Source: Deltaproteobacteria bacterium
Lineage (GTDB): Bacteria; Desulfobacterota; Deferrimicrobia; Deferrimicrobiales; Deferrimicrobiaceae
Direction: 5' to 3'
Assembly (NCBI GenBank): GCA_020346465.1
Contig: CP070783.1
Span: 1,112,448-1,152,254 of the forward strand
DNA: 39,807 nt
A program made the translations under genes and the position numbers. This document shows positions 13,872 to 17,037 of the stretch, piece by piece. The notes under the pieces are model-generated. The model did not search any database. It was given only the letters and a program-made list of their open reading frames with translations, and was not told the origin of the DNA. Within the stretch, counting starts at the first letter, position 1. Each line of letters starts with the position of its first letter.

Positions 13872-15119
13872 TCACGTATTCATCGAGTCGAGAAATTCCT
13901 GGTTGGTCTTCGTCTTGGAGATCTTGTCGAGAAGAAACTCCATGCTCTCCGCGGGCGACAGCGGGGAAAGGAACTTCCGGAGGATCCAGATCCGCTGGAG
14001 AACGGCCTTCTCGAGCAGGAGCTCCTCTTTCCGCGTGCCGGACTTGTTGATGTCGATGGCCGGGAAGATCCGCTTCTCGGAGATCTTCCGGTCGAGGACA
14101 AGCTCCATGTTCCCCGTTCCCTTGAACTCCTCGAAGATGACCTCGTCCATCCGGCTGCCGGTCTCGATCAGCGCCGTCGCGATGATGGTCAGGGAGCCGC
14201 CCTCCTCGATGTTCCGCGCGGCGCCGAAGAACCGCTTCGGCTTCTGGAGGGCGTTCGCGTCCACCCCGCCGGAGAGCACCTTCCCCGAGGGCGGCACCAC
14301 CGCGTTGTAGGCACGCGCCAGTCGGGTGATGCTGTCGAGGAGGATCACCACGTCCTTCTTGTGCTCGACGAGGCGCTTGGCCTTCTCGAGGACCATCTCC
14401 GCCACCTGCACGTGCCGCTGCGCCGGCTCGTCGAACGTGGAGGAGATGACCTCGCCGTTCACGCTGCGCTGCATGTCGGTGACCTCCTCGGGCCGCTCGT
14501 CGATGAGCAGGACGATGAGGACGACTTCCGGGTGGTTCTTCGTGAGTCCGTTCGCGATGTTCTGGAGGATGATGGTCTTGCCGGCCCGGGGAGGGGAGGT
14601 GATCAGCGCCCGCTGCCCCTTCCCGATGGGGGCGATGAGATCGATGATGCGCGTCGAGTAGTTGTCGTGCACGTGCTCCATCTGGAACTTTTCCTGCGGG
14701 TAGAGCGGCGTCAGGTTGTCGAAGATGATCTTGTCCTTGGCGATCTCCGGGTCCTCGGTGTTGATCTTCTCCACCTTGAGGAGGGCGAAATAGCGCTCAT
14801 CCCCCTTGGGCGCCCGGATCTGGCCCGTCACCGTGTCGCCGGTGCGCAGTCCGAAACGGCGGATCTGCGAGGGGGAGACGTAGATGTCATCGGGCCCCGG
14901 CAGGTAGTTCGAATCCGGGGAGCGCAGGAACCCGTAGCCGTCCGGAAGGACCTCGAGAACGCCCTCTCCGGAGACGATGACCTCCTGGTCGGTCTGCGCC
15001 TGCAGGATGGCGAAGATGAGCTCCTGCTTCTTGAGCCCGGCCGCGCCGTCGACGTGAAGGGTCTTCGCGATCTCGGTGAGATCCCCGATCCGCATCGCTT
15101 TCAATTCTTTCAGATTCAT
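13872..15119 (-). CDS. rho: Transcription termination factor Rho
   Basis: Hexameric RNA-dependent ATPase helicase that ends transcripts. 415 aa from ATG 15119: N-terminal Rho domain (1-45), cold-shock-like RNA-binding domain with [21 protein letters not shown] (61-81), and a RecA-like ATPase with Walker A SPPRAGKT (175-182), Walker [11 protein letters not shown], and Q/R loops including [10 protein letters not shown]. No large inserted domain between helices, unlike actinobacterial Rho. An ATG 13 codons upstream is in frame, but ATG 15119 has the GGGGGAA ribosome site and the family-typical NLKELK start. It has its own promoter. Confidence 0.97.
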
Positions 15120-15223
15120 GCACGTTCCCCCGAGTTTGTGGGCTTTTTCGGTTTTCATGGTGCGCCTGGTTCTACTGATGGGTAGAAGATCTCCGGCGGG
15201 TTGCCTGTCTAGCTGTATGATTC

Positions 15224-15253
15224 ATTTTCCGCCCCGCGGTTTCGTGATGTCAA
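15224..15253 (-). promoter_or_regulatory. Sigma-70-type promoter of rho
   Basis: Minus strand -35 TTGACA (15253-15248, perfect), 18-nt spacer, -10 GAAAAT (15229-15224, 4 of 6). It gives a leader of about 100 nt ahead of rho, in a clearly AT-richer stretch than the surroundings. A long leader fits the known autoregulation of rho in other bacteria, though no attenuation structure could be confirmed by eye. Confidence 0.6.
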
Positions 15254-15265
15254 GGAAAATCGCCG

Positions 15266-15280
15266 CGCGTCCCGCACGCG
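15266..15280 (-). terminator. Possible weak terminator after the GGDEF gene
   Basis: 5-bp inverted repeat CGCGT/ACGCG with a 5-nt loop, one base after the stop codon of the GAF-GGDEF gene. The minus strand then reads CGGCGATTTTCC, a short and displaced T run. It lies just upstream of the rho promoter and may give partial separation. Confidence 0.35.
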
Positions 15281-15281
15281 A

Positions 15282-16271
15282 CTAATCCGGGTAGATGGTG
15301 AAGGCGTTTCCCCCTTTCCGCACCGACTCGTGGACCATCGCCTCGGTGTGGGGGATGAGCACCCGCTCCGTGCCGCCGTCCTTCGGGTACTGGGCCACGC
15401 CGATCGCCACCGTGATGAGGATGTCCCCCTTCCCGACCGGGGAGGCGTTCATCGAGTCGACGATCCGCTTCGCCACGCTGGCCGCTTCCGTCTTCGCCAT
15501 CTGGGACAGCACGAGGTGGATCATTCCGCCGGAGCGGGCGGCGTAGTCCACCTCCCGGAGAGTCCCCTTGATCCGCTCCGCCACCTCGGCGAGGGCGGCG
15601 TCCGCCGCCACGTGCCCGTACACCGCGTTCATCTCGCGGAGGTTCCGGACCTTCAGGTACAAAAGGCTCACCGGGTGGCCGAATTTCTCCCCCCGGGACA
15701 GCTCGCGGTGCAGGACCTCGTGGAACACCTTGAAGCTGTGGAGACCGGTGACCGGGTCCACCCCCGGGACCCGCGAGATCATGCCGCGCAGGGTCCGCAG
15801 GGCGAGAAAGAAGGTGACGAGCCGCGCGTAGACGAGAAACGACTCCTTCGTCTCCGGCGTGAGGAACCCGGGATCGTCCGAATCCGCGAGGAAGACGCCG
15901 AGCGTCTCTCCCTGGAGCCGGCAGGGGACGGCGTACAGGCTCCGGTACGCGTGCTCGAGACGGAACGAGGGGTCCCGGGCGCGTTCGTCGTCGCCGCCGA
16001 CGAAGACGGGATCCTTCCGCGCCGCCGCGATGACGGGAAGGGTCTTCCTCGCGTACATCCCCTTGATGAAATTCCCGGACAGGCCCCGGTGGGCGAAGAC
16101 GGACAGCCCCTCCCCCCCGGGATCCACCGAGACCGTCACGGCGGAGAGAAGGGGGTAGCTGTCCATGAGGAGGCTCATCAGGTAGTTCGCCAGCTCCTCC
16201 TCCGAATACTTCCTCTCCATCCGACCGAACATCTCGCTCACGATGCGCTTCCGGATGCTTTCGCCGTTCAT
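15282..16271 (-). CDS. GAF domain protein with degenerate GGDEF domain
   Basis: 329 aa, soluble. Residues about 25-160 look like a GAF sensory domain (TVSVDPGGEGLSVFAHRGL, YRSLYAVPCRLQGETLGVFL). Residues about 170-325 are a GGDEF fold: DPVTGLHSFKVFHEVL, NAVYGHVAADAALAEVAERI, VAIGVAQYPKDG. The signature is SGGMI (247-251) instead of GGDEF, and the first metal aspartate position is occupied by KVRN (YLKVRNLREMN), so cyclase activity is very unlikely. It may bind a nucleotide or act as a scaffold. ATG with AGGAGACC ribosome site, 31 nt after pgeF; a possible promoter lies inside the end of pgeF. Confidence 0.85.
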   Translation of the reverse strand: MNGESIRKRIVSEMFGRMERKYSEEELANYLMSLLMDSYPLLSAVTVSVDPGGEGLSVFAHRGLSGNFIKGMYARKTLPVIAAARKDPVFVGGDDERARDPSFRLEHAYRSLYAVPCRLQGETLGVFLADSDDPGFLTPETKESFLVYARLVTFFLALRTLRGMISRVPGVDPVTGLHSFKVFHEVLHRELSRGEKFGHPVSLLYLKVRNLREMNAVYGHVAADAALAEVAERIKGTLREVDYAARSGGMIHLVLSQMAKTEAASVAKRIVDSMNASPVGKGDILITVAIGVAQYPKDGGTERVLIPHTEAMVHESVRKGGNAFTIYPD

Positions 16272-16302: not shown

Positions 16303-17037
16303 TTATGGATACGAACCAGTACTATAGATAAAGCTTAGTTGCCTGCCGGTCAAGGATTTTTCCCGTCGGTAGGAGTGGAACGCGTGCGAGCAGACCGTGC
16401 AGGGCCCCGCGGTCTCGCAATTCCCGGGGGGCACCCCCGCGGCGGCGAGCCCCTCCAGGGCCAGGGCGGCGAGGTCCGCCGTCCATTTCCCTTCCGGTCC
16501 TCCCCGGGAGAGGGACCGCTCTCCCCCGGGTAGCGGCCGGAGCAGGTCGGCCACCTCCTCCCCGATCTCGTAGCAGCAGCCGCGGGCCGACGGGCCCGCT
16601 GCGGCGACGAGCCCCCGGATCGCGTCGGGGCCGAACCGTTCGCCCAGACGGCGGACGGTCTCCCCGATGATCCCTGCGGCGAGCCCCCTCCAGCCCGCGT
16701 GGACGGCCGCGCACGCCGGCACCTCCGGGAGGACGATCAGGACCGGTACGCAGTCGGCGGTGCGGACCCCGACCCCGGTCCCGGGGATCGCGGTCCACAG
16801 TGCGTCCCCCTTCCGCCTCCCTTCGCCCCCCGGGACCGCGTCCCCCTCTTCCCACTCCAGGACGGTCGCGGTGTGCCTCTGCCTCAGCGTGCCGACGCGG
16901 GACGGGGGGACGGAAAAGACGGTCCGCAGCCTCCCTGCGTCCCCCCTTCCCGGAACGGGGTCGACGCCCAGGAAGGCGTGGTAGACCCCGGCCGCGGAGC
17001 GGAGCAGGGGGGACTGGACGAAGCGGGGGAGGATCAC
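16303..17037 (-). CDS. pgeF: Purine nucleoside phosphorylase / laccase-domain protein (YfiH, LACC1 family)
   Basis: 244 aa. Family of zinc-dependent purine nucleoside phosphorylase/adenosine deaminase-like enzymes, also linked to peptidoglycan editing (PgeF). Zinc-site motifs are RQRHTATV (His55), RTADCVPVLI (Cys96) and VHAGWRGLAAG (His113), with AGPSARGCCYEIGEEV further on and the C-terminal CTVCSHAFHSYRREK. GTG start overlaps the rluD stop (GTGA), the usual rluD-pgeF pairing. The last about 15 codons (SLTGRQLSFIYSTGSYP region) are unusually AT-rich and overlap a possible promoter for the next gene. Confidence 0.93.
   Translation of the reverse strand: MILPRFVQSPLLRSAAGVYHAFLGVDPVPGRGDAGRLRTVFSVPPSRVGTLRQRHTATVLEWEEGDAVPGGEGRRKGDALWTAIPGTGVGVRTADCVPVLIVLPEVPACAAVHAGWRGLAAGIIGETVRRLGERFGPDAIRGLVAAAGPSARGCCYEIGEEVADLLRPLPGGERSLSRGGPEGKWTADLAALALEGLAAAGVPPGNCETAGPCTVCSHAFHSYRREKSLTGRQLSFIYSTGSYP
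16325..16353 (-). promoter_or_regulatory. Possible promoter for the GAF-GGDEF gene
   Basis: Within the 3' end of pgeF, minus strand: -35 TTGACC (16353-16348, 5 of 6), 17-nt spacer, -10 TATCTA (16330-16325, 3 of 6; a TATAGT follows 4 nt later but at a poor distance). It is about 54 nt upstream of the start codon and coincides with an AT-rich island. Confidence 0.4.

Follow-up and report, generated by a model that had tools for sequence, protein, structure and literature searches.

What does a GGDEF protein do once its active site is gone, and does its conserved place beside rho say anything about that role? The question is raised by a gene on the minus strand of a 39,807-nucleotide stretch of DNA (hereafter the window), which lies on a single contig of 2.32 Mb. 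The original prediction described the product as a GAF-GGDEF protein with a destroyed active site, proposed that its retained fold reflected selection for a binding or scaffolding role, and left it as a question whether rho or c-di-GMP was involved.

Domains and predicted structure

The gene occupies 15282–16271 (minus strand; ATG at 16271, stop codon at 15284–15282), as indicated by the open reading frame (ORF) call and by orthologues, and encodes a putative pseudo-diguanylate cyclase of 329 amino acids. The motifs picked out in the original prediction – SGGMI, DPVTGL, NAVYGH and VAIGVAQ – are all present in the translation of this minus-strand ORF. A GAF domain at approximately residues 23–152 (15816–16205, minus strand) was delimited from Pfam GAF/GAF_2 matches, alignment and the structure model, and a degenerate GGDEF domain at residues 171–322 (15306–15761, minus strand) from Pfam and structural matches. 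The Pfam match to GGDEF has an E-value of 7e-23, while that to GAF is marginal (1.5e-4, 22.7 bits against a cut-off of 22.4). No output domain was found in the 329 residues, and inspection of the translation by eye found no long hydrophobic stretch.

A first AlphaFold2 model, from 12 aligned rows, was poor (pLDDT 60.7), and a second was used, built from 50 rows: 12 from the family and 38 of 80 GGDEF loci. Mean pLDDT reaches 87.6, and values around 90 or higher prevail in the GGDEF half; with a pTM of 0.51, how the two domains sit relative to each other is uncertain. Structures on which the GGDEF half can be superposed include PleD (PDB 2wb4; Z 23.6, rmsd 1.8 Å over 162 residues) and a Geobacter GGDEF domain (PDB 6d9m; Z 24.2, 2.0 Å over 163 residues). 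The claim that the fold is well kept thus holds for the GGDEF half, which is confidently predicted even though the active-site residues are missing. The best Foldseek match over both domains was the GAF-GGDEF cyclase Dcsbis (PA2771, PDB 4zmu, E-value 2.4e-18). PelD was absent among the 50 structural matches listed, which excludes nothing.

Residues lost and retained

As comparators for the GGDEF domain we used 20 domains of the phylum in which the GGDEF motifs are intact; three rows from the window's own genome were excluded, namely L005 (partial), L007 (itself degenerate) and L003. Roles in metal binding, catalysis, phosphate binding and the I-site were assigned by analogy with PleD, with K317 equivalent to K442, R193 to R313, R269 to R390, and the DxD aspartate to D327. 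This numbering is consistent with the structural alignment, in which residue 166 falls on PleD 286 and residue 329 on 454.

Destruction of the active site is borne out by this comparison. At the DxD metal site, K207-V-R209 (codons 207–209, 15645–15653, minus strand) replaces both aspartates, D207 by K and D209 by R. The GGEEF column has become GG-MI, a hairpin (G248-G249-M250-I251; 15519–15530, minus strand; alignments and model) from which one residue is deleted and the acidic residues are gone. The phosphate-binding lysine column, K317, is V in the window protein and V, M, T, A or S across the family. The replacements at the metal site are themselves nearly fixed – K207 is found in all 15 family rows aligned, R209 in 14 and R212, at the position of a lysine conserved in motif-intact domains, in all 15. 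The features of an active diguanylate cyclase are absent throughout: GG(D/E)EF is degenerate in all 16 family members and all three of the distant homologues described below, which have S where the family has K207. Judged from these residues, the protein has lost what a diguanylate cyclase needs for metal binding, catalysis and phosphate binding, and is enzymatically dead.

Other ligand-binding positions have been kept. The I-site RxxD motif, R239-E-V-D242 (codons 239–242, 15546–15557, minus strand), has R239 and D242 unchanged in all rows of an 18-row homologue alignment, at identities down to 28%. N215 and D224, which correspond to guanine contacts, are also kept in 18 of 18 rows; this N and D act as guanine contacts in DgcR (PMC8041772), and D344 is described as such a contact in PMC7288161. 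R193, at the secondary I-site position, is retained, and R269, the third I-site arginine, is present in the window protein and varies in the family (R in 6 rows, K in 7 and N in 2, n = 15).

From residue 172 onward, 45 GGDEF columns are at least 90% conserved in the 20 motif-intact domains, and 18 of these show no substitution in the 15 family rows. None of the five metal, catalysis and phosphate columns is among the unchanged (chance 0.07), as against both guanine contacts and three of four I-site columns, the one lost being R269. The chance that at least five of the six I-site and guanine columns would be unchanged is 0.03, with the groups set after the columns were seen. RxxD is common in any case – 29 of 38 generic GGDEF domains taken from viral contigs have it, as do all 20 comparators – so its retention is measured against a high baseline, and the statistic is correspondingly mild. 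Having RxxD is in itself nothing out of the ordinary; what counts is that it has outlasted the predicted loss of activity, down to 28% identity.

Orthologues and age of the loss

Clear full-length orthologues were found in 16 of 59 genomes searched, the window's own included, all within one family. The other 15 are 46–98% identical to the window protein. The site is lost in all 16; since 15 other orthologues have the same loss, it is not a sequencing slip. On the checks that the original prediction had suggested, none of the 16 orthologues has an intact GGDEF, and all 16 share the place beside rho. A scan of GTDB contigs found 11 named records with orthologues, all of them metagenome-assembled genomes, titled Deltaproteobacteria bacterium (8), bacterium (2) and Actinomycetota (1).

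A search of 395 genomes of the phylum found three full-length homologues outside the family (G041, G047 and G084), with scores of 395–450 bits; G041 and G047 were in the search profile, which raises their own scores, and G084 was not. Other out-of-family matches scored at most 190 bits, among the matches listed (up to five candidates scored per genome). All three distant homologues lack DxD and GG(D/E)EF and have the same one-residue deletion as the family; in the DxD aspartate columns they carry S and G in place of the family's K and R. In a maximum-likelihood tree of 40 rows, which took 15 of the 16 family members, the 18 degenerate rows (15 family and 3 distant) fall on one branch with support 100/99; the tree comes with warnings of long branches and, for two of the distant homologues, of unusual composition. 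In G084 the homologue contains an internal stop codon.

No match to rho, rluD or pgeF was found in the available flanks of the three distant homologues. The loss of the GGDEF site therefore probably predates the gene's place next to rho. By eye, the G047 and G084 homologues are beside CxxCH-motif and thioredoxin-like ORFs, and the G041 homologue is beside other genes. Specifically, L093 (G084) and L204 (G047) are each between thioredoxin-like ORFs and downstream of a CxxCH-rich ORF, an arrangement that hints at a redox connection within this lineage.

Selection and loss

Eight chosen orthologue pairs had whole-gene dN/dS of 0.10–0.43 (Nei-Gojobori) and per-domain values of about 0.09–0.58, the highest being that of the GGDEF half in the pair G011/G022. 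The window gene compared with that of G002 had a dN/dS of 0.32, based on few changes.

The gene is not universal in the family. Across 24 genomes (G000–G023) it is intact in 16, absent in six and broken in one. The six (G001, G005, G009, G015, G019 and G020) have rho without the GAF-GGDEF gene beside it, and no match to the gene was found elsewhere in them at E ≤ 1e-40; in G020 a 991-aa ORF of another kind is upstream of rho instead (L067, 835–3810). The broken copy, in G004 (L026/L077), is a 116-aa remnant, in frame despite two internal deletions, and keeps its place between pgeF and rho; G004 and most of the other genomes are draft assemblies in which errors are possible. The remaining genome, G003 (78% complete), yielded neither an orthologue nor a rho match at E ≤ 1e-150 and is not judgeable. 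All seven family genomes without an intact gene have other GGDEF-type matches. Nor is the gene present in G024 or G025, the two sister-family genomes.

A nucleotide tree of rho covered 22 genomes of the family (all but G002 and G003) and two of the sister family, 24 in total. Across its weakly supported backbone the genomes lacking the gene are scattered, which suggests several losses. Given the G004 remnant and the absence in six family genomes, the role must be dispensable. The gene is under purifying selection yet dispensable; the proposal of selection on the retained fold stands for the lineages that keep the gene (dN/dS below 1 in all eight pairs), and is qualified by decay and absence in their relatives.

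Genomic context

On the minus strand the genes are ordered rluD, pgeF, the GAF-GGDEF gene, rho and thyX, followed by more housekeeping genes; rluD, pgeF, rho, thyX and the others were named by recognising their translations, and presumably are what these names say. As predicted, the GAF-GGDEF gene immediately precedes rho; both run in the same direction, and 162 nt separate the stop codon of the GAF-GGDEF gene from the conserved rho ATG. That ATG is at 15119 (rho, 13872–15119, minus strand), where the protein begins MNLKELK, and not at 15158, from which the ORF would be 13 residues longer; most matches in relatives' rho start at residues 9–14 of the longer ORF.

In each of the 16 genomes that carry it, the gene lies next to rho, upstream and on the same strand, and an in-frame search placed pgeF directly upstream of it on the same strand in all 16 as well. 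In the window the pgeF-like gene (16303–17037, minus strand, start approximate) stops 31 nt before the GAF-GGDEF ATG. The two overlap in nine of the 16 genomes, by 4 bases in eight and by 32 in one, and are separated by 25–56 nt in the other seven. This tight packing suggests a single transcript, and coupled translation where the genes overlap.

Rho, on the other side, is probably transcribed from a promoter of its own, to judge by the sequence between the two genes. A sigma-70-type promoter-like site, TTGACA-18-GAAAAT, is at 15224–15253 (minus strand), the only one in the region 13.7–17.2 kb, where shuffling gave a mean of 0.1 (3.5 kb). TTGACA-18-GANAAT is found at the equivalent place in 10 of the 16 carriers. 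In the other six, TTGAC(G/T) overlaps the stop codon of the GAF-GGDEF gene, with a weaker -10 element at 17–18 nt that matches at 3–4 of 6 positions; the shuffle control covers the window site. All nine genomes with rho and no intact GAF-GGDEF gene have a promoter-like site too (six with TTGACA, two with TTGACT and one with TTGACG), and pgeF is upstream of rho in seven of these nine, not having been found there in G005 and G020.

Two other features of the intergenic region were considered. A hairpin overlapping the stop codon of the GAF-GGDEF gene was rejected as an intrinsic terminator, with three sites found against a shuffle mean of 1.7, and Rfam gave no match in 15050–15320 at E-values up to 1. 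The 5' leader of rho (about 15119–15217, minus strand) has a CCTGCCGGAGTCTTT-like stretch in many of the compared genomes, and GGAGTGCCTTCCGGA in a subclade; this stretch is possibly autoregulatory.

That the protein regulates Rho or termination, with the adjacency reflecting that role, is highly improbable. The invariant adjacency in 16 of 16 carriers speaks for it. However, at its opposite end the gene sits tightly against pgeF, rho has a separate promoter-like site that in six genomes overlaps the GAF-GGDEF stop codon, rho remains where the gene is missing, and the distant homologues are beside other genes. A link with rho is therefore not supported; the place next to rho looks incidental, and its conservation in these genomes gives no indication of a role in termination. 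In the literature searched, c-di-GMP, GGDEF and 'transcription termination factor Rho' reportedly occur together in one study, by its title on Csr.

Predicted function

We place moderate confidence, evenly balanced against doubt, in the reading that the protein is a dead diguanylate cyclase acting as a c-di-GMP receptor, of the same kind as PelD, PopA and SgmT. The protein would probably be made from the same transcript as pgeF. C-di-GMP from the cell's other cyclases would bind at R239 and D242 of the I-site, and would probably tie the GGDEF domains of a dimer together through R193, altering the shape of the protein or its contacts with a partner. The GAF domain may provide a second small-molecule input through K70, R104 and H107. 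With no output domain found, the protein would have to act through a partner. C-di-GMP is likely to be present in this cell, whose genome encodes both cyclase-type and HD-GYP-type proteins: there are seven GGDEF places, with DxD and GG(D/E)EF intact in L001, L002 and L004, ten PF13487 (HD-GYP-type) matches over cut-off and one PilZ match; no EAL match was found in this genome. Another of its GGDEF places, L007 (G000:C1:957011-960271), is a second degenerate domain, with no recognisable DxD region and with RIGEWKF at the signature.

Two observations weigh against a receptor: R269 varies in the family, its counterpart being important in PelD, and the gene is absent or broken in seven of the 24 family genomes. 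The kept guanine contacts, moreover, could instead serve the fold or another ligand. One alternative is that the GGDEF half is a ligand-free dimer scaffold and the GAF domain, with K70, R104 and H107, is the working sensor. Seven GAF residues (G63, S65, K70, R104, H107, P116 and G125) are indeed invariant in the 18-row alignment, and the two halves are similarly constrained in most of the eight pairs; this alternative is nevertheless unlikely, as a protein serving only as scaffold would have no need to preserve RxxD, N215 and D224 while other ligand residues go. Of the two roles originally proposed, binding or scaffolding, both accord with a kept fold, lost chemistry and selection, and it is binding that is favoured by the retained RxxD and guanine contacts, on the evidence of the alignments. 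That the gene is nearly functionless and on its way out of the family would explain the 116-aa remnant with its two deletions, the six genomes with no copy, and their scatter on the weakly resolved rho tree. Such a history is improbable given an intact frame in 16 genomes, dN/dS below 1 for both domains in eight of eight pairs and many residues invariant down to 46% identity, and G004 and most of the others are drafts in which errors may mimic decay.

A further alternative concerns the old active site itself, where the switch from acidic to basic residues is the least ordinary feature of the protein. The switch could allow guanine nucleotides to bind without metal: K207, R209 and R212 would supply the charge of the lost Mg2+ and N215 and D224 would hold the base, so that the pseudo-active site might hold GTP or (p)ppGpp and make the protein a purine or alarmone sensor, with or without c-di-GMP at the I-site. 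The near-fixation of the three basic residues (15, 14 and 15 of 15 family rows) and of the two base contacts (18 of 18) is consistent with this, as are the PDB entries 9g85 and 9g86, titled PleD with c-di-GMP and ppGpp or pppGpp, and the degenerate GGDEF domain of CC3396 that binds GTP (PMC7288161). The reading is rather unlikely, with the K317 column variable (V/M/T/A/S), the hairpin shortened, and the distant homologues having S and G instead of K and R. Its fullest version, a pocket turned metal-free sensor that takes (p)ppGpp or GTP at the old site, c-di-GMP at the I-site and a further ligand in GAF, is improbable as a whole. If true, the charge-swapped site would offer a handle on metal-free nucleotide sensing by dead GGDEF domains.

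The c-di-GMP receptor is the preferred reading. If it is correct, the family represents soluble GAF-type c-di-GMP receptors with testable residues, in a group represented here mostly by draft genomes. Among the papers searched, none paired Deferrimicrobium with GGDEF.

Comparison with known systems

Receptors made from dead GGDEF domains are an already known kind, and the window protein shares features with several characterized proteins. Dcsbis, its best structural match over both domains, is reportedly a highly active cyclase, by the title of its study (PMC4937426). The whole-chain rmsd between 4zmu and the window model is 16.8 Å, so either the domain arrangement differs or it is badly predicted.

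CC3396 of Caulobacter is likened by description: a dead GGDEF domain reported as a guanine-nucleotide sensor (PMC7288161). Unlike the window protein, it has a neighbouring EAL phosphodiesterase domain. PopA, also of Caulobacter, is a receptor with a dead GGDEF domain and RxxD, according to PMC10333796; it has a REC-REC-GGDEF architecture without GAF, whereas the window protein has a GAF domain. SgmT of Myxococcus xanthus shares with the window protein a GAF domain, a dead A-site (GGGVF in SgmT) and an intact RxxD, through which it binds c-di-GMP (PMC3509222). SgmT is a hybrid histidine kinase, and the window protein has no output domain.

PelD, the receptor of Pel polysaccharide export, is alike in having a GAF domain followed by a dead GGDEF domain with RxxD. 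For PelD from B. cereus, whose GGDEF domain is degenerate, c-di-GMP binding was measured at 103 nM, and no signal came from variants in which the R, the D or the third R was changed to alanine (PMC7112168). PelD differs in being membrane-integrated and encoded in pel loci (PMC7112168 and PMC10333796), while the window gene adjoins pgeF and rho. The third I-site arginine (R402 in PelD, R390 in PleD) is present in the window protein itself and variable in its family.
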